Shown: piece after piece, positions 5,083 through 36,549 of the stretch
How the letters are laid out: each line of letters starts with the position of its first letter
How positions within the stretch are numbered: position 1 is the stretch's first letter
Origin: Deltaproteobacteria bacterium
GTDB taxonomy: Bacteria; Desulfobacterota; WTBG01; CAIYCZ01; CAIRTM01
Assembly (NCBI GenBank): GCA_024276465.1
Contig: JAJRXD010000052.1
Span: 1-38,058 of the forward strand
DNA: 38,058 nt
Direction: 5' to 3'
Made by a program: the position numbers and the translations under genes
The notes under the pieces: model-generated
The model's input: only the letters and a program-made list of their open reading frames with translations
What the model was told of the DNA's origin: nothing
Databases searched by the model: none

Positions 5083-5222
5083 TAGTGTCTGAACGAAAAC
5101 CCTGATTCAGGTTGGAAACCGAAAAATAATTTTCTGCAGGAGCGCCTTCAGGCGCGATATCAGTTCTGTTTTTCGCGCCTGAAGGCGCTTCTGCAGACTC
5201 AGGAATTTACGTTCAGCCACTA
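5083..5222. mobile_element. hairpin MITE, copy A
   Basis: The ends are imperfect terminal inverted repeats: TAGTGTCTGAACGAAAA on the left, and TAGTGGCTGAACGTAAA as the reverse complement of the right. Inside is a second, longer inverted repeat built on GGAGCGCCTTCAGGCGCGA and TCGCGCCTGAAGGCGCTTC. There is no coding capacity. About 80 bases of the left half match the reverse complement of the right half of the element at 35444-35610. It lies upstream of the thiolase gene. Confidence 0.7.
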
Positions 5223-7039: not shown

Positions 7040-7056
7040 AGGCGCAGAGGGAAAAA

Positions 7057-7112
7057 GGGTTCGAGGGTTCAAGGGGTCAAGGGGTCAAGGGGTCGAGGGT
7101 TCAAGGGAACCC
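7057..7112. repeat. degenerate GGGTTCAAGG / GGGGTCAAGG tandem repeat
   Basis: About five near-identical 10-bp units (GGTTCGAGG, GGTTCAAGG, GGGTCAAGG) follow the stop of the SDR gene and end in AGGGAACCCTTT. The units are the same sequence that builds the terminal repeats of the element at 8933-9369, so this may be an end-only remnant of that family. Confidence 0.6.
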
Positions 7113-7175
7113 TTTGTCTTTGCTGTCTTTGTTCCTGTTTTTTCTAACTTTAGTTCACTTTAGTTGCTTTTACAT

Positions 7176-8930
7176 ATGAAATACCTTCTTTTTTTTATCA
7201 TATCCATGGCGCTTTCAGCGCTTATTACCCCCCTTGTCAGGCTTACGGCTCTAAAAGCTGGTTGTGTTAATGAGCCGCGCAGGGACAGGTGGCACACAAA
7301 ATCCACACCTGTTTTAGGTGGCATTGCAATTTTTTTATCTTTTGTCACTCTTTTTCTTTATAATTATGGGTTTTCAGAAAAAACACTGCCGATTTTGATA
7401 GGGGGATGTTTTATATTTTTGTTAGGGCTTGCGGATGATCTGAGGGGGCTTACACCCCAGGTAAAATTTATAGGGCAGATTGCTGTTACAGCACTTTTGA
7501 TCAGCATGGGAACTGTAGTGGAAATTATCCCGTGGCCTGTTGTTTCCTACCCTCTTACATTTTTCTGGATAGTAGGTCTTACAAATGCATTTAATCTGAT
7601 TGACAACATGGATGGTCTTTCTGCAGGAATTGCAGCCATAAGCTCAAGTGCACTGTTTATCTTCTCGTTTCCTAATGGAAATGACCCTGTTACCCTGCTG
7701 TCGATTGTGTTAGCCGGATCATGTATCGGGTTTCTTTTTTACAATTTCAATCCTGCCCGCATCTTCATGGGTGACTGCGGGAGTATGTTTCTGGGATTTA
7801 TGCTTGCTTCCCTTTCTGTATCAGGTACCTGGAAGCATGCCTCAAGCCTTTTTGTAACGTTTCTTGTTCCTGTGCTTATCCTGGGAATACCAATTATTGA
7901 TACAGCTTTTGTAACTTTGATGAGAAGGATCAAAGGGACGCCGATTTCTCAGGGAGGCAGGGATCATCTCTCGCATCGCCTTGTTGCCCTTGGGTTCAGC
8001 GAAAAAAAGACAGTTCTCATCCTTTACACAATTTCAGCGGTTGCCGGTCTCGGAGCGCTTTTTTTCAGCGAGATTAACCCCTTTGCTTTTGGGGCAGTTG
8101 CCCTGGTATTTTTGATAGGTCTTTTCTATTTCTGTGTTTTTTTAGGGTATTCAGAGGGGAAAAACAGTGATGCAAACCAGGCAGCATACACTCCGGGAAG
8201 GCAGGTGAAGGCACTGCTTGTCAATTCCCAGAGGTTTATGGAAATATTTGTTGACCTTGTTCTTGTAGTTGTTTCCTATTTTGCCGCATATCTTATCAGG
8301 TTTGAAGGAGGTGTGCCTGAGCTCCAGCGCAGCTATTTTATTAACACCCTTCCGATTGTTGTGGTTGTCAAGATATCTGTTTTCTATTTTTTCGGGCTTT
8401 ACCAGACAGTCTGGCGGCATGTCAGTGTGCGGGACTTTATCAACATACTGAAATCAGTCCTGATAAGCTCGCTAATTATTGTTTTTATAATTCTGATGTA
8501 TGCGCGGTTTCAGTATTTTTCCAGAACTGTTTTTGTAGTGGATGCGATGCTGAGTCTTCTTTTGATCAGCGGGGCGCATTTTTCGCTGCGCATTTTCCGG
8601 GAGTATCTTGAGAGCCAGCCTGTGGGCAGGAGCAGGGTGCTGCTGATAGGGGCTGGAGATGCCGGTGAGATGGCCCTCAGGGAGATACGGAACAATCCGG
8701 CAATGAAATTTAATGTTGTCGGATTTCTTGATGATGACCCATTTAAACAGAAAAGAAGGATTCATGGGGTGCAGGTGCTTGGGAAAATAGAGGATATCGG
8801 AACTGTGTCGGACAGGACAGGAGCAACCGAGGCTTTTGTTGCCATTGCTTCTGTACCCGGAGACAGGCTTGAAAGGATTTTTGATGTCTGCGGGCAGAAT
8901 AATGTTTTGTGCAGAAGGTTTGGGGAGTAA
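7176..8930 (+). CDS. WecA-like phosphoglycosyl transferase fused to the N-terminal half of a FlaA1/CapD-like protein
   Basis: The 584-residue product starts at the ATG at 7176; a TTG 12 bases upstream is also in frame, and neither has a good ribosome site. Residues about 1-325 form a polytopic WecA/TagO/MraY-type transferase that loads a sugar-1-phosphate onto undecaprenyl phosphate. Its motifs are LADDLRGL, NAFNLIDNMDGLSAG, FNPARIFMGDCGSMFLGF and GGRDHLSHRL. Residues about 340-580 are a different module: four membrane helices starting VDLVLVVVSYFAAYLIRF, then a nucleotide-binding fold VLLIGAGDAGEMALREIRNN and VVGFLDDDPFKQKRRIHGV. This equals the N-terminal half of FlaA1/CapD/PglF dehydratases. 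The chain stops at RRFGE, where those proteins would start their catalytic SDR domain. The separate SDR gene just upstream may supply catalysis, but that is only an inference. Confidence 0.85.
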   Translation: MKYLLFFIISMALSALITPLVRLTALKAGCVNEPRRDRWHTKSTPVLGGIAIFLSFVTLFLYNYGFSEKTLPILIGGCFIFLLGLADDLRGLTPQVKFIGQIAVTALLISMGTVVEIIPWPVVSYPLTFFWIVGLTNAFNLIDNMDGLSAGIAAISSSALFIFSFPNGNDPVTLLSIVLAGSCIGFLFYNFNPARIFMGDCGSMFLGFMLASLSVSGTWKHASSLFVTFLVPVLILGIPIIDTAFVTLMRRIKGTPISQGGRDHLSHRLVALGFSEKKTVLILYTISAVAGLGALFFSEINPFAFGAVALVFLIGLFYFCVFLGYSEGKNSDANQAAYTPGRQVKALLVNSQRFMEIFVDLVLVVVSYFAAYLIRFEGGVPELQRSYFINTLPIVVVVKISVFYFFGLYQTVWRHVSVRDFINILKSVLISSLIIVFIILMYARFQYFSRTVFVVDAMLSLLLISGAHFSLRIFREYLESQPVGRSRVLLIGAGDAGEMALREIRNNPAMKFNVVGFLDDDPFKQKRRIHGVQVLGKIEDIGTVSDRTGATEAFVAIASVPGDRLERIFDVCGQNNVLCRRFGE

Positions 8931-8932
8931 AG

Positions 8933-9369
8933 AAAGGGTTCCAGGGTTCAAGGATTTGAGGGGTCAAGTGAAATGCTTAAAAATTATAAAGAGTTAAAAG
9001 TTTGGAAGAAATCCTATAAGCTGTGTTTGGAAATTTACAGAACAACAAAGGGATTTCCTAAAGAAGAAAGATATGGTCTGACATCGCAAACAAGAAGAGC
9101 AGCAGTCTCAGTGTGTAGTAATATAGCACAAGGATATGGGAGAAAAACAACACCGGACTATATTAGATTTCTATATATATAGCCTATGGTTCAATTTGTG
9201 AGTTAGAGACCCAGCTATTATTGTCAGGTGATCTGAATTATGTTGAAACCGGTACTTTAAAAGCACTTAAGGAAGAAATGGGAGATGTTGAGAGGATGCT
9301 CAAAGCACTCATTAAATCATTAGAAGAAAAACACTCGACCCCTTGAATCCTTGACCCCTGGAACCCTTT
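8933..9369. mobile_element. TIR-bounded element carrying a four-helix-bundle gene
   Basis: The left end (8933-8970) and the reverse complement of the right end (9332-9369) match at 34 of 38 positions. Both begin AAAGGGTTCCAGGG and end GGGGTCAAGTG or GGGGTCGAGTG. They enclose just one gene, of the S23/IVP four-helix-bundle family, whose ATG is 3 bases inside the left repeat and whose last codons run into the right repeat. No transposase is present, so it would move in trans. Shorter relatives lie at 18001 and 22154. I see no clear target-site duplication. Confidence 0.65.
8973..9346 (+). pseudogene. four-helix-bundle protein (S23 / 23S-rRNA IVS family), frameshifted
   Basis: The first frame reads MLKNYKELKVWKKSYKLCLE, IYRTTKGFPKEERYGLTSQT and RRAAVSVCSNIAQGYGRKTT, the hallmark of the TIGR02436 four-helix-bundle family encoded in 23S rRNA intervening sequences. 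It hits a TAG at 9180-9182. Skipping one TA unit in CTATATATATAG (9171-9182) restores the family continuation AYGSICELETQLLLSGDLNY, followed by a last helix (EEMGDVERMLKALIKSLEEK) and a stop at 9344-9346. The restored length, about 123 residues, is normal for the family. The extra TA dinucleotide is either slippage, a real inactivation, or a sequencing error. Family members are thought to form pentameric bundles; their function is not established. Confidence 0.8.
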
Positions 9370-9912
9370 ATCTTAGCGTTTCAAGCGAAGTGGTCGGTTA
9401 GTATTAAAAAAAACATTGTCCCTGTATTTATAAAACTTTTTTGAAACTTTTTTATGAATTCTGTGTTTAAGTAGGTAAAAAATTTGCAAAAAAAAGGAAG
9501 AATAAATCCTCTGAGCGTATAAAAACGTATAAGAATTGTCTAAAAAGGGGTTTGTTTATAAAATCTTTTCTTTTTTTGCAATTAATTTTATTAGAATAAA
9601 TTAAAAAAAACTTGACAACCCCCATAAAAATCCTTTAGTTTGTTTTTCAACTGCCGATATTTACAGATATTTTTTTATCGGGGCTGACAAAGGTGTATCT
9701 TTTTGCAAAATACTTACATAAATACTGTAAGTATTCGATGATAACTAACAGGAAAAAGCAGATGAAATTAAAAAGAGGAAAAATATTTTTTATAGAAGGA
9801 GGTGATTAAGGGAACATAAACATAATATTTAAATACAGCAGTAATTAAGTAAATACAGCAGTTTATTAGCAGGAAATTTTTTTACTCACTTAATAAGTGA
9901 AAGGAGTAAAGT
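9370..9912 (+). promoter_or_regulatory. 543-bp AT-rich leader upstream of the large exported protein
   Basis: This long gene-free stretch probably carries the promoter and 5' untranslated region of the next gene. Visible elements: a consensus TTGACA at 9612-9617 without a strong -10; a perfect 9-bp inverted repeat AATACTTAC/GTAAGTATT (9709-9735); a 15-codon frame MKLKRGKIFFIEGGD (9762-9809); a near-perfect anti-SD match GAAGGAGGTGATT (9795-9807) with no gene behind it; and a direct repeat TAAATACAGCAG (9830-9841 and 9850-9861). A hairpin TCACTT-AAT-AAGTGA (9886-9900) touches the gene's own Shine-Dalgarno AAGGAG (9901-9906). No riboswitch family is recognised. Confidence 0.45.
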
Positions 9913-12900
9913 ATGACAAAAAAACTTTTAGTACTTTTTATCAGTCTTATGATGTCAATGGCATTTTTTGCCGGCAATGTCATTGCAGGTGAGGCTACAA
10001 CTTTGCATATTGAAGCTGACACCACTTCCCCTGAGGTTTTTGGTGATGAGATGAGATGCAGGGTTGTGATTCTGGATGACAATGGTGAGCTGGCAACAAC
10101 ATTTGGCGGCGCGGATATAACAGATTCCACACTTTCCATTCAGTCTGCAAACTATGGTGATGATGTGCGTTTTTCAACCCAGCCTGCAACTGACCTTACT
10201 CTTTCAAGGTTTGGTGACTTTCTGGCTGCAGCTGAAAAAGTAACTGTCAGTGTAAACCAGGCATGGCAGGAGTTTGCTGTAAATTTTGACGGTGTCAAGG
10301 AAGTTGGAGATGACACAATAACTGTTACTCTCAAAAAGGGCAGTTCCACAATTACAGCTGATCAGGATTATACTCTTATGGCTCCGGAGGCAGACACATT
10401 TGTTGCCCTGACCGGTGGCGTTGGAACCCTGCCGGATGTGCTTGATGAGCTGCCGTCTGCTCAGTCAGACAAGGGCGCAACAAAGACAGCCGGGGACTCA
10501 ACAACCGTTGATATTTTTGCTGCAAGATATTATGATGGTGATAATGACGGTACAAAGGAATTCTACTATACTGACAATGTGCCTGACTGCATGCAGAATG
10601 TTACGGTTCTTGGACTGTTCGGTATTACCTCGGTTACAACTGACTTAAAGGTTACATCATCTGAAACACTTACTGACGGTCATGTGAGCACATCCGTGCC
10701 GGTTCATGATATCATGATTCCCGAGTGGATTGCTGCAAACCAGAGCAACTGGTCAACCAGGGCTTCACAGATGAATGCCATGAGCTGGCTGTTTGCAAAC
10801 GGTATTACAGTGACATGGTCTGCATCTGCAGGATGTACCAGAGTGATCGGCTCCAAGATGAATGATGTAAACTCCAATGAGGAACTTGAAGTTTCTCTGT
10901 TTGACAGGGAAAAATATTACATTTCACCTACTGCCCCCTCATCAAGAAGTGATACGTCACATTACAAAGCAGATGAGACAGAAAACATAACAATTGTCGG
11001 ACTGCCTTTAAACCAGATAACCAAGTATTCTGCTCATCTGGAATGCGGTTTCTTAGGCCAGGGAAGTCCACCAAAAACAATGAGCATATCACCCCTTGAT
11101 GTATTCTATCTGCCCCCGGATCCGCTGAAAAAGCCTTCAGGAGGCCAGTTCAAGGTGGCAGGAGAATCCGGATCAACAAATATCTATGGTGCTGTTGTAT
11201 CCTATGACAGGTATGACAACCCGGCACCTTTTAACCCTGATAATTCCGGAGCAGGAAATGTAAGGGTTTCTCTTAAGAAAACAGCTGATGCCGGAACAGG
11301 CAATCCCATTGCTGTAAACAGTGCTGATAGCGGAGAGGTTGTTTCTCCATGGAATTATGATTCTGACTATGCGAATGCCTATATTACAAATACCTACAGC
11401 CTGCAGTCATTTATTCCATTTGCAATCCCGGCTACAAATTCCAATGGAACATATGCTTCCATAACAAACTGCTTTATCAGCAGTATAAGCGTGGACGGTG
11501 GTTCAAATACGATTGCCACTGATCCTTTCGAGGATAATGTGGGCTCTGAAACCCTTGGTGTTGACTTTTTTGCACAGGATTATGTGGGAGCCATAACCCA
11601 GACAATTGCAACAGATATTAAACAGGTTCAGCAGGATGATTCTGAGGTTAAGGTGATTGGAACCGGAAAAGAGAAGTCATGGGTGATGAATTCTGTTCTT
11701 TCAACTGATGGATCAGCCATGGACGTGGGTCCTGAAGATTCAACAACCGGATCAAGCTCTGTTACAATTGCAAATGACAAAGACGAGCTTGCAAAGACAA
11801 AAGTTGTTTACTTTACCACAGCAAAGAACGCCAGTAATATTTTCTGTATATTCAAGGGCGCTGATGCCAGCACCTTTGCTGTTTCTCCGGTAACTGTTAC
11901 TGCAAATTCAAGTACCGGAATCAAACCGCTTGACGGAGGCGATGGTGAGCCTTCAGCCATAGGTCCTATTGTTAAGACAGTCAGGGTCAACCTTGATCCT
12001 GAGGAAGACCATAATATCCTTTCCATTAATAATGCTCCATCCAATGAGGGTCCTGCACTGATAGTTCTTGATGCACACGGGAATGCATACCAGTCAACTC
12101 ATGGTAATTCCTCGCTTGAGGATGCTGAACTTACAGGCAAGGTCCTGAAACCAATGGACAATGACACTGACACTGCGTCAGACGTTGAAGCCGAGCATAC
12201 GGTTGATTTTGATAATGATCTTGTCAAGGTAGAGTTTGATCTGGATACCATAGGCCCTGATGAAGGAACATACTTTGTGGAGCTTCAATCATCCCAGGGC
12301 AATAAAAGCGGAACAATCAAGGTTCAGGTTAATGCCATGCAGTCGCTGAACATGAAGAACAAGTTTGTTGCTGTACCAGGTATTACTGATACGCCAGTAG
12401 ATCTCTTCTTTGCAGACCAGGCCGGCGACAAGATTGAACCTGTAACAATCACATCCACCACAGCAGGTTCCGGAAAGAGCTACGGGACAAGCGGTAATAA
12501 ACTTGATGTGGAGTTTGAGGTTGACAATGGAACACTGAGCGGTGTCAGCACCAGCAGTGCATCAAAGCTGTCAACTGCTTCACCGAAAATCGTATTTACA
12601 GCAAAACCATCATCAGGCAAGACCACCATGGAGATTACAGCTGATCCTGATGTGAGCGGACTTGATGATTCAGTACTGAGCCTGAAGTTTGCGCCTGATT
12701 TCAACAAGCCTGAGGTTGGAACACCAACAGGAATTGACTGCGGAATCTCCATTCCGATCACTGATGATATTGCTGTTGATACAGCAGCATCCACGGTAAC
12801 AGTTAAAAACTCTGATGGCGAGGATGTTACCGACACATTTACAAGAACAGATACTGACAGCGGAGCAAGCGGTACTATCGAGCTCAAGGGACCAGCAGGA

Positions 12901-13719
12901 ACCACAGGCACATATACTGTTGTTGTTGTTGCAGCTGATCAGGCAGGAAATCTGTCTGAAGAGGTGACAAAGCCAGCTGAAATCACTTCATGTTCTGGTG
13001 TAGTGCCAAGCTGCCTGGACGTTGACCCTATGTTTGCTCTTCTTGGTGAGACTGAGAGCGTAACCATTACAGGTGAGGATACTAACTTTGCAGACGGAAC
13101 AACAGTGGTATCATTCGGATGTACTGGTGTGACCATTGACAGCACAACTGTCAACAGTGCTACTGAGGTTCTTGTTAATATCACAGTTGCAGATGATGCA
13201 GCAGAGGAGACCTGTGATGTGACCGTGACAACCGGAAGTGAAGAGATTACATGTGCTGATTTATTTGAGGTCACAAGCATAGCTCCGTGTATTGATGAGG
13301 ATGGAGACGGATACGGTGAAAACTGTGATGCAGGCATTGACTGTGACGATACTGACGCTGATGTGAATCCTGGAGCAGAGGAAGTTTGCGATGACGGAAT
13401 CGACAATGACTGCAGCGGCAGCGATGAGGTATGTGCACCATCTGGATGCAGCATTGCGAGTGTCAGCCCGGACAGTGTCAGAACCGGACTGGGCCTGCTG
13501 CCGAGGTTCAAAAGTGTTACAATTACCGGAGATGAAACTGCAGACTTTAGCGATATCACTAAAGATGATGTTGATTTCGGAGCAAGCGGTATTACAGTTA
13601 TTTCTGCATCCGGAACCGGCAACTCAGTAAGAGCCCTTATAATGGTATGGGGAGCTGCAAAAGGCGACTCTGACGTGAGTGTTGGTGACTGTGACGGCGG
13701 AACATTTACCGTGCAGTAA
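9913..13719 (+). CDS. large exported surface protein with Ig-like/IPT domains and a MopE-type metal-binding motif
   Basis: The 1268-residue product starts at an ATG behind AAGGAGTAAAGT. Residues 1-25 are a signal peptide (KKLLVLFISLMMSMAFFAG, cleavage after VIA). The rest is strongly acidic, Thr/Ser/Asp-rich beta-type sequence without membrane helices. A bacterial Ig-like section lies around 935-1035 (DDIAVDTAASTVTVKNSDGE). An IPT/TIG-like domain lies around 1040-1122. Residues 1126-1175 carry the repeated Asp/Cys motif DEDGDGYGENCD, DCDDTDADVNPGAEEVCDDG and IDNDCSGSDEVC, matching the MopE-like putative metal-binding family (PF11617). It has no sortase or PEP-CTERM signal. Length, composition, long leader and a dedicated terminator suggest an abundant cell-surface protein, perhaps an S-layer or adhesin; that role is an inference. 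Confidence 0.85.
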   Translation: MTKKLLVLFISLMMSMAFFAGNVIAGEATTLHIEADTTSPEVFGDEMRCRVVILDDNGELATTFGGADITDSTLSIQSANYGDDVRFSTQPATDLTLSRFGDFLAAAEKVTVSVNQAWQEFAVNFDGVKEVGDDTITVTLKKGSSTITADQDYTLMAPEADTFVALTGGVGTLPDVLDELPSAQSDKGATKTAGDSTTVDIFAARYYDGDNDGTKEFYYTDNVPDCMQNVTVLGLFGITSVTTDLKVTSSETLTDGHVSTSVPVHDIMIPEWIAANQSNWSTRASQMNAMSWLFANGITVTWSASAGCTRVIGSKMNDVNSNEELEVSLFDREKYYISPTAPSSRSDTSHYKADETENITIVGLPLNQITKYSAHLECGFLGQGSPPKTMSISPLDVFYLPPDPLKKPSGGQFKVAGESGSTNIYGAVVSYDRYDNPAPFNPDNSGAGNVRVSLKKTADAGTGNPIAVNSADSGEVVSPWNYDSDYANAYITNTYSLQSFIPFAIPATNSNGTYASITNCFISSISVDGGSNTIATDPFEDNVGSETLGVDFFAQDYVGAITQTIATDIKQVQQDDSEVKVIGTGKEKSWVMNSVLSTDGSAMDVGPEDSTTGSSSVTIANDKDELAKTKVVYFTTAKNASNIFCIFKGADASTFAVSPVTVTANSSTGIKPLDGGDGEPSAIGPIVKTVRVNLDPEEDHNILSINNAPSNEGPALIVLDAHGNAYQSTHGNSSLEDAELTGKVLKPMDNDTDTASDVEAEHTVDFDNDLVKVEFDLDTIGPDEGTYFVELQSSQGNKSGTIKVQVNAMQSLNMKNKFVAVPGITDTPVDLFFADQAGDKIEPVTITSTTAGSGKSYGTSGNKLDVEFEVDNGTLSGVSTSSASKLSTASPKIVFTAKPSSGKTTMEITADPDVSGLDDSVLSLKFAPDFNKPEVGTPTGIDCGISIPITDDIAVDTAASTVTVKNSDGEDVTDTFTRTDTDSGASGTIELKGPAGTTGTYTVVVVAADQAGNLSEEVTKPAEITSCSGVVPSCLDVDPMFALLGETESVTITGEDTNFADGTTVVSFGCTGVTIDSTTVNSATEVLVNITVADDAAEETCDVTVTTGSEEITCADLFEVTSIAPCIDEDGDGYGENCDAGIDCDDTDADVNPGAEEVCDDGIDNDCSGSDEVCAPSGCSIASVSPDSVRTGLGLLPRFKSVTITGDETADFSDITKDDVDFGASGITVISASGTGNSVRALIMVWGAAKGDSDVSVGDCDGGTFTVQ

Positions 13720-15956: not shown

Positions 15957-18035
15957 ATGCACATGCTTAAATTCCTTCAAAACAAGGGTTCAGCTTACAG
16001 AGGTTTTGCTGTTTTGCTGCTGCTTGTGGCAATATCATTTATCCTCTACGGCAATACCATTTCAAATCAGTTTGTCTTTGATGATATCCCCCTTATTGTT
16101 GAAAACAGTGCAATTAAAAGCCTTAAAAATATTCCGGAAATAATCGGCTTTAAAAACGGAACCCCCCTGTACAGGCCTGTGAGGTTCCTGTCTTATCTCA
16201 TTGACTATTCGTTTTCAGGACTGAACCCCAAATCCTATCACATATCAAACATCCTGTACCATGCAGCAACAGCATTTGTTTTGTTTTGCCTGCTGAAACT
16301 TCTTACAGGATCAGCAGCTGTTGCTGTTACTGGCGCACTGCTTTTTACTGTCCATCCTGTCCATACTGACAGTGTTGCTTATATATCAGGCAGAAGGGAT
16401 ATTCTGTGCACGCTTTTTTATCTCTCGGGGTTTTACTGTTTTATCCTGTTCAGGCAGAAAGAGAAAAAACTGTACATGGTGCTGACCAGCATTCTGTTTG
16501 CTGCAGCACTTGGTTCAAAGGAGATGGCTGTAACACTTCCTGCTGTCTGCCTGTTGTATGATTTTATCTGCGTATATGGAAGGTTCAGCGGCAAAGTGTT
16601 CAGGAAAGAGCTTTTGACCCGTTTGAAGCCATATGTTGTCCTCTCCCTGATGGGAGCACTGTACCTGTACTATAAAATTATCCTTCACTATCCATCGCTC
16701 AGAACGCAGTATTACGGGGGAAGTGCAGAAAGCAACTTTTCCACGGTTTTCAGGATATTATGGCGCTACATAAAGCTTACCCTTTTTCCGGTAGTTCTTC
16801 ATGCTGACTATTCATACAATGCGTTTTCTGTTTCAAGCACGTTTTTTGAACCTGGTGTGATAGGATCAGCATCTGTTGTAATATTGCTTATCTTTTCAGG
16901 CATTCTGAGCCTCAGAAGAGAAAAACTGGTTTTTTTTGGCATCATCTGGTTTTTTGTGACCCTTCTTCCGGTCTGCCATATTTTTCCGCACCATGAAATT
17001 TTAGCCGAGCATTACCTGTATCTTCCCTCTGTCGGGTTTATAATAGCTCTCAGTCCTCTCTGGAAGCATGTTTTTTCATGGGATAAACCGGAGGCACAAA
17101 GGCACAAAGGCACAGAGGCACAGAGGCACAGAGGTACAGAGGTACAGAGGTACAAAGGCACAGAGGAGGCACAGAGGCACAGATGCACAAAGGGGCAGGG
17201 TGACAGGGGTACAGGGGCTAAGTGGAACAAAGCATTTATTGCGGTAATTATTTCCATACTGTTTCTTTTTTCAGTCCGGACAATTGTCAGAAACCGGGAC
17301 TGGAAGGATGGAATGACGCTCTGGGCAAGTGTTCTTGAGACGACTCCTGAGTGTGCCAGAGCACACGACAATCTGGGAAGTGAATTTTTCAGGATAAAAG
17401 ACTTTAAGAAAGCCCTGTACCATTACCGTCAGGCTGTAAACATCAGGCCCGGGCATGGTATTTTCCACAACAACCTGGGGATGGCCCTTGGGGCAACAGG
17501 GGATATTGATCAGGCAGAGGCTGAGTTTAAAAAAGCCATTGCCCTTAACAGCGGACTTGCTGCTGCATATAATAACCTGGGAATTGTATATTATAAAAAG
17601 AAAAAATACACAAAAGCTGCCTGGTTTTTCTGGAAAAGCGCCAGGATGAAGCCAGGTGCAAAGGCGTGGTTTAACTGTGGAAAAGCACAGCTCAAAAGAG
17701 GGGCGATTTTTAAAGCTGCGTTTTCATTCCAGAGGGCAATTCGCTACAACAATACCTATGCAGAAGCGTACAAGAGCCTTGGAACAGCGCTGAAAAAGGT
17801 AAAGCAGTATAAAAAGGCAATCAAAGTATTACAAAGGGCCACTGTCCTGAAACCAGGTGATGCTGAGACCTATTATATAACAGCATCGGTGTATGAGAAA
17901 ATGGGAGACAGAAAAAAGGCTTTATGGTATCTTGAAAGGGCTATGCAGGCAGCAGGTGATCCGGTTTTGAAATCAAGGATTGAGAAAGAATTAAAAAAAG
18001 GAGTCGAGGATTCAAGGGTTCGAGGGGTCAAGTGA
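15957..18035 (+). CDS. multi-spanning membrane protein with C-terminal TPR repeats (TMTC-like)
   Basis: The 692-residue product has about ten membrane helices in residues 1-375 and one more near 424-440. A TPR array follows at about 463-680 (ARAHDNLGSEFFRIKDFKKA, IFHNNLGMALGATGDIDQAE, AAAYNNLGIVYYKKKKYTKA). N-terminal FVFDDIPLIVEN and LYRPV..LSY..DY recall GT-C glycosyltransferase-like TMTC/DUF1736 proteins, with a DD motif in the first loop. Two segments are repeat-derived. Residues about 379-421 are encoded by the GGCACAGA minisatellite (EAQRHKGTE and relatives) and lie in a loop between membrane helices. The last eleven residues plus the stop come from the TIR element at 18001. Start ATG at 15957 has no clear ribosome site. 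It probably acts in envelope glycosylation. Confidence 0.8.
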   Translation: MHMLKFLQNKGSAYRGFAVLLLLVAISFILYGNTISNQFVFDDIPLIVENSAIKSLKNIPEIIGFKNGTPLYRPVRFLSYLIDYSFSGLNPKSYHISNILYHAATAFVLFCLLKLLTGSAAVAVTGALLFTVHPVHTDSVAYISGRRDILCTLFYLSGFYCFILFRQKEKKLYMVLTSILFAAALGSKEMAVTLPAVCLLYDFICVYGRFSGKVFRKELLTRLKPYVVLSLMGALYLYYKIILHYPSLRTQYYGGSAESNFSTVFRILWRYIKLTLFPVVLHADYSYNAFSVSSTFFEPGVIGSASVVILLIFSGILSLRREKLVFFGIIWFFVTLLPVCHIFPHHEILAEHYLYLPSVGFIIALSPLWKHVFSWDKPEAQRHKGTEAQRHRGTEVQRYKGTEEAQRHRCTKGQGDRGTGAKWNKAFIAVIISILFLFSVRTIVRNRDWKDGMTLWASVLETTPECARAHDNLGSEFFRIKDFKKALYHYRQAVNIRPGHGIFHNNLGMALGATGDIDQAEAEFKKAIALNSGLAAAYNNLGIVYYKKKKYTKAAWFFWKSARMKPGAKAWFNCGKAQLKRGAIFKAAFSFQRAIRYNNTYAEAYKSLGTALKKVKQYKKAIKVLQRATVLKPGDAETYYITASVYEKMGDRKKALWYLERAMQAAGDPVLKSRIEKELKKGVEDSRVRGVK
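17091..17218. repeat. GGCACAGA minisatellite inside a coding region
   Basis: Some 14 copies of an 8-bp unit (GGCACAGA with GGCACAAA, GGTACAGA and related variants) run in frame through the membrane protein gene. The same unit occurs between etfB and etfA at 36443-36509, which shows the array is an invading genomic repeat and not a native protein motif. Confidence 0.9.
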
Positions 18036-18086
18036 ATCGAAGAGAAAAGTTTTGATTTATTTTTAAATCCTCGACCCCTTTATCTC
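18001..18086. mobile_element. short TIR element related to the four-helix-bundle element
   Basis: It opens GAGTCGAGGATTCAAGGG, continues GGGGTCAAGTGAATCGAAGA, and closes with CCTCGACCCCTTTATCTC. The 55-base core matches the reverse complement of the copy at 22154-22248 almost base for base (GAATCGAAGAGAAAA then TTTTGATTTATT). Its outer sequence is the terminal repeat of the element at 8933-9369. It supplies the last codons and the TGA stop of the upstream gene. Confidence 0.75.
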
Positions 18087-22153: not shown

Positions 22154-22248
22154 AAAGGGTTCCAGGGGTCGAGTGTTTTTAATAAATCAAAAATTTTCTC
22201 TTCGATTCACTTGACCCCTGGAACCCTTGACTCCTTGAACCCTTATCT
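22154..22248. mobile_element. TIR element related to the four-helix-bundle element, inverted copy
   Basis: The left end AAAGGGTTCCAGGGGTCGAG (22154 on) is the inverse of the right end CACTTGACCCCTGGAACCCT (from 22208). The core is shared with 18001-18086 in the opposite orientation. There is no coding content. It fills most of the 236-bp gap between purQ and the Nudix gene. Confidence 0.75.
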
Positions 22249-35443: not shown

Positions 35444-35610
35444 TAGTGCCTGAACGGAAACCCTGTTTTTTGTTAGCGCGGCGTATGTAGGAGCCGGCTT
35501 TAGCCGCTAAAAACAGACTTGTTGTTGCGTAATATCGCGCCTGAAGGCGCTCCTACAGAAAATTATTGATCAGATTTTAACCTGAATCAGGGCTTTTCGT
35601 TCAGGCACTA
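35444..35610. mobile_element. hairpin MITE, copy B
   Basis: It begins TAGTGCCTGAACGGAAACCC and ends with the inverse of TAGTGCCTGAACGAAAAGCC. The right half is the reverse complement of the left 80 bases of copy A at 5083. The left half has a different core, GTAGGAGCCGGCTTTAGCCG. There is no coding capacity. It lies in the 242-bp gap between the acyl-CoA dehydrogenase gene and etfB. Confidence 0.75.
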
Positions 35611-35648: not shown

Positions 35649-36443
35649 ATGAAGGGATTAAAGATTATAGTTGCTGTTAAACAGGTGCCTGGCACTGATG
35701 AGGTTAGAACTGATCCGAAAACAAATTCACTGATCAGGCAGGGGGTTCCGGGGATTTTAAACCCTGAGGACAGGAATGCGGTTGAAGCTGCCCTGTGTCT
35801 TAAGGAAAAGCATGGCGCAGCTGTCACAGCATTGACAATGGGCCCCCCCGAGGCTGGTGATGTTCTCGAAGAGGTTTTTGCCATGGGAGTTGACAAAGGA
35901 ATTCTTTTAACTGACATGGCCTTTGCCGGATCTGATACTTTGATAACAGCGTTTATCCTTTCAAGGGCAATAATCAAGTCAGGACGTTTTGATCTTATTC
36001 TCTGCGGGCGTCATGCAATTGATGGAGAAACCGCCCAGGTTGGGCCCCAGATTGCCGGATTCATGGATCTGCCTCAGGTCACATATGCTGAAGAGATTGT
36101 GCTTGAAAAAGGATTTATTACAGTCAGGAGAGACCTTGAGGATTGCCAGGAATGGGTAAAAGTGAAACTGCCTGCTGTTGTAACAGTAACATCCCGGATT
36201 AACCGGCCCCGGTACCCCTCACTCTATAATGTTCAAACAGCATGTGACGGCAGCCTTCTTACCACCTGGGGCGCAGAGGATTTAAAAGTGCCTGCTTCAA
36301 TGCTGGGCCTTGATGCGTCACCCACGGTTATAAAAAAAATATTTGAACCTGATCACAAAAAAAGGGGTGAAATTATTCCAGGTGATGAAAAAGAGATGGC
36401 AGCTTCTCTTATAGAGAAGTTAAAAGGAGTAAATGTTATTTAG
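35649..36443 (+). CDS. etfB: electron-transfer flavoprotein beta subunit
   Basis: The 264-residue product begins LKIIVAVKQVPGTDEVRTDP and holds LNPEDRNAVEAALCLKEKHG, AVTALTMGPPEAGDVLEEVF and CGRHAIDGETAQVGPQIAGF. These are the usual EtfB/FixA landmarks. It binds AMP or FAD and forms a dimer with EtfA, taking electrons from the dehydrogenase encoded upstream. ATG at 35649 follows AAGGTTAT. Its TAG stop (36441-36443) is the first three bases of the repeat tract that separates it from etfA. Confidence 0.94.
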   Translation: MKGLKIIVAVKQVPGTDEVRTDPKTNSLIRQGVPGILNPEDRNAVEAALCLKEKHGAAVTALTMGPPEAGDVLEEVFAMGVDKGILLTDMAFAGSDTLITAFILSRAIIKSGRFDLILCGRHAIDGETAQVGPQIAGFMDLPQVTYAEEIVLEKGFITVRRDLEDCQEWVKVKLPAVVTVTSRINRPRYPSLYNVQTACDGSLLTTWGAEDLKVPASMLGLDASPTVIKKIFEPDHKKRGEIIPGDEKEMAASLIEKLKGVNVI

Positions 36444-36509
36444 GCACAGAGGCACAGAGGCACAGAGGCGCAAAGGGACAGAGGCACAGAGGCACAAAGG
36501 GACAGAGGG
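36443..36509. repeat. GGCACAGA minisatellite between etfB and etfA
   Basis: About eight 8-bp units (GGCACAGA, GGGACAGA, GGCGCAAA) start on the last base of the etfB stop. The same unit forms the coding tract at 17091-17218. It is directly followed by the GCGCAT-hairpin repeat. Confidence 0.9.
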
Positions 36510-36549
36510 GTAGGAGCGCATTCATGCGCGAAAGGAATTGGGAAAAAGG
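36505..36549. repeat. GCGCAT-hairpin dispersed repeat, copy 2
   Basis: AGAGGGGTAGGAGCGCATTC continues ATGCGCGAAAGGAATTGGG. It is the second copy of 21189-21233, in the same orientation relative to the downstream gene. Confidence 0.8.

Follow-up and report, generated by a model that had tools for sequence, protein, structure and literature searches.

An S23/IVP gene between inverted octamer arrays: a probable minimal insertion element and its relatives

The closest known system to the elements described here is the intervening sequence (IVS) of 23S rRNA genes that carries an S23 open reading frame. The IVS of Coxiella burnetii contains tandem GACAGAT heptamers 5' of its ORF, in a copy number that varies between strains, and has a 28-bp terminal stem; like the elements here, it encodes a homologous protein, is about 430 bp long, has terminal inverted repeats and is suspected to be mobile (PMC4990558). 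The rRNA IVSs lie inside rRNA helices, from which RNase III excises them. The elements described here are found in spacers of protein-coding operons instead, and arrays at both ends, unlike in the IVS description, are the rule for the S23 family. MITEs and REPINs with RAYTs provide a second parallel, as gene-less copies with inverted ends are likewise dispersed from a gene-bearing parent. The S23 parent, however, has no known transposase, and its ends are fast-evolving tandem arrays rather than a fixed sequence. The Avd protein of diversity-generating retroelements is a homologous four-helix bundle (PF22296 E-value: about 1e-6, NF033474 E-value: 5e-9, both below the curated cut-offs), but the host genome of the element studied here has no reverse transcriptase (RT) gene (no PF00078 match).

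Bacterial heptamer repeats (STRR) offer a further comparison. GGGAATC heptamers occur in Xanthomonas at 186 sites, with 70 inverted pairs, and their origin is not known (PMC4692102). The Nostoc unit is GGGGA(C/T)T (PMC4692102), and Nostoc trnL introns have heptamers on either side of the P6b stem (PMC4476775); in Beggiatoaceae the unit is TAACTGA (PMC4679880). These repeats resemble S23 arrays in unit length, in having one G-rich strand, in their partial arrangement as inverted pairs and in their intergenic location. Unlike S23 arrays, they have been described without a gene or mechanism and without a link to S23 (PMC4692102, PMC4679880, PMC4476775). No report linking S23 genes generally to inverted heptamer arrays was found in the open-access literature, and there is a realistic chance that S23 elements form a class of their own.

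The window analyzed here is positions 1-38,058 (forward strand) of contig JAJRXD010000052.1 of a Deltaproteobacteria bacterium (GCA_024276465.1). Its relevant features are as follows.

7055..7107 (+): lone array of the NAGGRKTC octamer, 5' of the 588-aa gene
7164..8930 (+): upstream gene, 588 aa; left anchor of the empty-site comparison, with orthologs in genomes G004 and G002
8933..8970 (+): left end of the element, inverted octamer array (NAGGRKTC units), starting 2 nt past the stop codon of the 588-aa gene
8973..9182 (+): S23/IVP four-helix-bundle gene, N-terminal part, from the ATG to the frameshift (PF05635 E-value: 1.8e-26)
9137..9346 (+): remainder of the S23/IVP gene (C-terminal), read in the shifted frame and ending with the TGA at 9344-9346 within the right array
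9172..9182 (+): frameshift, TATATATATA, with one extra TA relative to an open frame
9332..9369 (-): right end of the element, inverted octamer array, from arm alignment and the reading of tandem units
9913..13719 (+): downstream gene for a large secreted protein (MTKK...); serves as the right anchor when empty sites are compared
17998..18085 (+): gene-less or nearly gene-less copy with the ends of the element
22155..22244 (-): gene-less or nearly gene-less copy with the ends of the element, in reverse orientation

The element (8933-9369) is located in a 982-bp spacer between two protein-coding genes that are both on the + strand, and not inside an rRNA gene. Both of its arms are 38 nt long and complementary at 34/38 positions. 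The start codon (8973) lies 2 nt beyond the left arm and the stop codon inside the right one. Alignment and the PF05635 match bear out what had been read from the letters alone: an S23/IVP gene between inverted arms. The description of these arms as terminal inverted repeats holds for their inverted arrangement, but they are not one classical repeat; each is a tandem array of the octamer NAGGRKTC, and across the family such ends are arrays of 7-8-nt units with a lineage-specific unit. When the upstream flank is aligned to the reverse-complemented downstream flank (best alignment taken as the arm score), the window element scores 28; mismatched pairings of an upstream with a downstream flank from the same data (6222 pairs) have a median score of 8 and reach 16 at the 99th percentile. 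The RNA fold of 8925-9375 has a z-score of -5.45, and none of 100 shuffled sequences is equally stable.

Both halves of the gene match PF05635, and the window protein (P0001) scores above the curated cut-offs of PF05635 (92.8 bits, cut-off 33.8) and TIGR02436 (83.1 bits, cut-off 24). The nearest relative, L047, matches the solved structure 2gsc (XCC0516; E-value: 5.8e-26). In the closest relatives, the final residues (KHLNP) and the stop codon are likewise encoded by the array. The family and position given by the sequence-only reading thus stand, but the gene is not intact: because of the extra TA at 9172-9182, the ATG frame ends at the TAG at 9180-9182 and the remainder is read in another frame. 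The gene is either a pseudogene or the product of an assembly slip and, being frameshifted, the window copy as read is no active source. Profile searches found no transposase or recombinase family match in the element, of which S23 is the only gene. Two other origins were tried and rejected: no Rfam match in 8800-9950 points to an RNA family already described, and a tblastn search of 50,697 phage records gave no match that would indicate a phage.

Among eight other genomes of the family, two from sister genera (G004 and G002) lack the element at the orthologous site. In both, the upstream gene (74% and 70% identity, respectively) is followed directly by the downstream gene, with spacers of 643 and 648 bp in which neither S23 nor octamers were found; the spacer portion nearest the downstream gene is recognizably common to the host, G004 and G002. 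Within the host genome, about ten further copies of the window element were counted by search, some of them with a gene-less copy as the query; they comprise remnants of the gene with internal deletions, hairpins that lack the gene, and lone arrays. C83 and C146 are internally deleted remnants of the window S23 gene that keep both ends, at least one end is preserved in the remnant C31, C20 derives from the 5' end of the gene, C11 and C76 are gene-less or nearly so, and C150 resembles half an element. The gene-less copies that had been noticed in the window are real: those at 17998-18085 and 22155-22244 share, whole or in part, the inner ends of the element (GGGGTCAAGTGAA...AAAAACACTCGACCCC). 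Elsewhere in the genome, the ends enclose either what is left of this S23 gene or no gene at all, and in no copy an unrelated one. The host genome has two more complete S23 genes, and these carry different arms, of the AATGGCCAATAGGC type (C34) and the AGCTATCAGC type (C166).

This layout is not confined to the window. A total of 161 PF05635 loci was collected in two independent sets: 81 belong to relatives within the host's phylum, and 80 come from scanned GTDB genomes that span about 20 phyla and include Methanophagales archaea. Median arm scores are 18 (same-phylum set) and 16 (GTDB set) compared with 8 for mismatched flanks, and the 99th percentile of mismatched flanks, used as the threshold, is exceeded by 51/81 and 46/80 loci, respectively; clear arms are absent in about a fifth of the loci of the two sets. 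Of 117 arms, 87 have a period of 7 nt, 21 of 8 nt and six of 9 nt, and the mean autocorrelation is 0.60 at lag 7 and 0.56 at lag 14 (0.23-0.35 at other lags). Period-7 arrays are found in 33-36% of S23 flanks compared with 1-3% of control stretches 650-800 bp away. Inverted arrays of 7-8-nt units are the rule around most genes of the S23/IVP family. None of the loci examined is located in rRNA, where a search for IVS copies had been proposed (three exact 23S motifs were tried).

The arms have a consistent polarity and position. The left arm is G-rich on the gene strand in 114/128 loci (GC skew +0.45). The gene upstream of S23 is co-directional in 125/146 loci, S23 agrees in direction with a same-direction neighbor pair in 99 cases and opposes it in eight, and the usual position of the element is immediately 3' of a stop codon. 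Between genomes, unit sequence tracks protein similarity (Mantel test, 0/1000 permutations as high). Arms of the AATAGCCAATAGG type, for example, are common to L001 of the host genome and L135 of a Methanophagales archaeon; below a relative protein score of about 60-70%, the units diverge and the inverted layout stays. The order of units in the two arms is mirrored more than in permuted order, which is only suggestive because the arm region was picked by best alignment.

Base-level evidence for insertion comes from cyanobacterial plasmids. Filled copies are found in Trichormus variabilis ATCC 29413 and 0441 and in Scytonema NIES-4073, and empty copies in Nostoc linckia and N. carneum and, as judged by coverage, in Aulosira, Microchaete and Tolypothrix; filled and empty plasmid copies are about 98% identical. 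The empty site reads aaaaaGTAATTAACAAATA and the filled site aaaaaGTAAT[aaatcagaattcag...S23...ttcttctttG]TAATTAACAAATA. This is a clean insertion at one plasmid site with duplication of 4-5 bp, (G)TAAT; the upstream gene has its stop codon within these bases. In Brasilonema, the identical place is occupied by an element that lacks the gene, has units of the same family and may have duplicated 7 bp; the element there in Nostoc C052 is truncated. At other plasmid sites (a TraM gene, an integrase gene and two further spacers), copies that are about 90-97% identical are variously filled, gene-less or empty. Neither these sites nor others compared show a second unambiguous target duplication; at the sites without one, the spacer is replaced or altered.

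Many Flavobacterium species also have empty sites. In 200 species, the spacer between two genes that we take, from their sequences, to be pRiA4b-ORF-3-like and NdpA-like was compared. Among the matches listed, S23 is present in dozens of species, mostly of one clade, whose spacers measure about 480-650 bp, and sampled empty sites have spacers of 87-192 bp, often with a short hairpin. At the identical spacer, two species carry an S23 of another lineage with GTTTAAA-type arms; these were gained separately on the tree, and one adjoins an empty sister. Across 36 filled sites, a left arm is more similar to the right arm of its own element (median 21) than to the right arms of other species (median 12), and two groups of species differ in most units of both arms (AGGTTCAA versus AGGTTCTA). 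The better match to the own arm and the change common to both arms indicate concerted evolution of the arms. In one Flavobacterium genome (L279, G142), the first element is followed by another incomplete S23 C-terminus that has a right array of its own, an arrangement suggestive of nesting or duplication.

A prediction about the published heptamer repeats was set beforehand: in a genome with GGGAATC repeats, S23 should be bounded by GGGAATC arrays. (GGGAATC)3 is present in one of 369 gammaproteobacterial genomes (G633), whose single S23 match (L359, 1457-1917, frameshifted, in sense) is flanked by GGGAATCGGCAATGGGGAATCGGGAATC and inverted CGATTCCCTACTCCCCATTCCCGATTCCCG, both GGGAATC arrays, as predicted, in this one genome and locus. 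The neighbors of L359 are presumably accB and accC of a fatty-acid synthesis operon. In Sphaerospermopsis, GGGAATA, the unit of S23 locus L166, gives 543 three-unit matches (two mismatches allowed, overlapping windows included) and the reversed pattern none; 19 sampled sites are mostly lone arrays rather than pairs. GGGAATC and GGGAATA arrays border S23 genes in two genomes here, and the S23 element layout may be the source of some long-unexplained bacterial heptamer repeats.

The excess of lone arrays over S23 genes in one cyanobacterium is what would be seen if the arrays themselves were the spreading entity, multiplied by slippage and hairpin-driven copying, and the S23 gene a passenger with an unrelated host or addiction role; gene-less heptamer hairpins at identical sites are in keeping with this. 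Arrays that flank S23, however, are inverted, mutually matched and track the protein lineage, and the internal-deletion derivatives resemble a parent that lost its gene, so we regard this explanation as unlikely.

The next alternative, which we consider quite unlikely, is an IVS-like RNA element: the arms would pair in the transcript, RNase III would excise the RNA, and an RT acting in trans, with the Avd-like S23 as its partner, would copy it, so that the element spreads by way of an RNA intermediate. The homology of S23 to IVS proteins and its weak homology to Avd, the sense orientation within operons, the stable fold of the window element and the excision of the Coxiella IVS by RNase III (PMC4990558) all fit such a route. 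An RT is nevertheless disfavored, because the host genome (95% complete) has no PF00078 match and RT is not associated with S23 over 58 genomes (p = 0.77). Selection for a helix in the sense RNA is disfavored because G-U pairs on the sense strand are not enriched among arm mismatches (205 vs 245); on this wobble test, the role in RNA folding that had been suggested for the element is not borne out.

Mobilization in trans by Y1/RAYT transposases, in a REPIN-like manner, is improbable. Y1_Tnp presence does go with S23 (31/39 genomes with S23 vs 7/19 without, p = 0.003), and copy numbers of S23 and Y1_Tnp, unlike those of RT, correlate (Spearman 0.58 over 58 genomes, uncorrected for phylogeny and genome size). 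However, RAYT genes of the surveyed genomes have other ends and no heptamer arrays, and eight S23-bearing genomes have no Y1_Tnp match. That the element is an ordinary, immobile spacer, in which a small gene lies within an inverted repeat of the terminator kind, is hardly credible, despite the short terminator-like hairpins at some empty sites, given the dispersed copies, the empty sites, the one target duplication and a layout that recurs over about 20 phyla, and filled and empty sites at about 98% identity already speak against it.

An insertion element is the reading we prefer because orthologous sites are empty, the ends are conserved, deletion derivatives exist, the same unit and lineage recur in distant genomes and one duplication was found. 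The window feature is probably a minimal insertion element of about 440 bp, composed of one S23/IVP gene between inverted arrays of 7-8-nt units, whose S23 protein would recognize its own unit. The idea of a minimal mobile element, put forward from the window by itself, has gained support from empty sites (in two sister genera, many Flavobacterium species and the cyanobacterial plasmids), from dispersed deletion derivatives and from the base-level insertion on plasmids; neither of the two outcomes named in advance as speaking against it, ends around random unrelated genes and a lack of empty sites, was seen. Members of the S23 family and the homologous Avd are reported to form pentamers, and we know of no catalytic function for the S23/IVP family.

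The proposed model for movement of the element is as follows. S23 would bind its own repeat unit at both ends and pair the ends of the element. Together with host enzymes, it would then move the element and, in trans, gene-less copies. Arrays would lengthen by slippage, and the two arms would be kept alike by copying one to the other. The first steps of this model, recognition of the unit by S23 and pairing of the ends, are proposed because of the link between unit and protein and the distant similarity to Avd; the former could be explained by linkage alone. More tentatively, and at a little short of even chances, S23/IVP may be the protein of an unnamed class of mobile elements in bacteria and archaea, a four-helix bundle that would recognize a fast-evolving 7-8-nt unit in the terminal inverted arrays, with the rRNA IVS and at least some bacterial heptamer families as special cases or by-products. 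A widespread family annotated by the place of its first discovery, the rRNA IVS, would then become a mobile-element product with definable ends, and the heptamer repeats of Xanthomonas, Nostoc and Beggiatoaceae would be offered a testable origin. If S23 does read its own unit, then a bundle of helices only about 120 residues long would itself serve as an integration machinery of a so far undescribed kind, or recruit one, and nature offers many pairs of protein and unit for testing.

A second octamer array, of the AGGCACAG type, is found in the window at 17091-17217. It lies in frame within a 692-aa ORF (15957-18035), to which it contributes a low-complexity stretch (EAQRHKGTEAQRHRGTE...), and is an array that landed in coding sequence. 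A lone array of the same type at 36442-36535 is directly followed by a GTAG-tagged palindrome (GTAGGAGCGC...GCGCG). REP-like palindromes (TCTGCAGGAGCGCCTTCAGGCGCGA) are present at 5096-5197 and 35532-35596 as 65-nt inverted copies that are 88% alike, and the host genome has 14 Y1_Tnp matches, several of them RAYT-sized. An outer second inverted repeat, TCATCTCCCAAAGAGTTGG...CCAACTAATTGGGAGAAGAACC, surrounds the octamer arms of L051 and L063 (both in G054) and L052 (in G025), three copies of the S23 lineage of the window; the two genomes belong to different families. A single contig of G025 (C31) carries several S23 copies of one lineage (L075, L080 and L088) with GCGTTCGGC-type arms.
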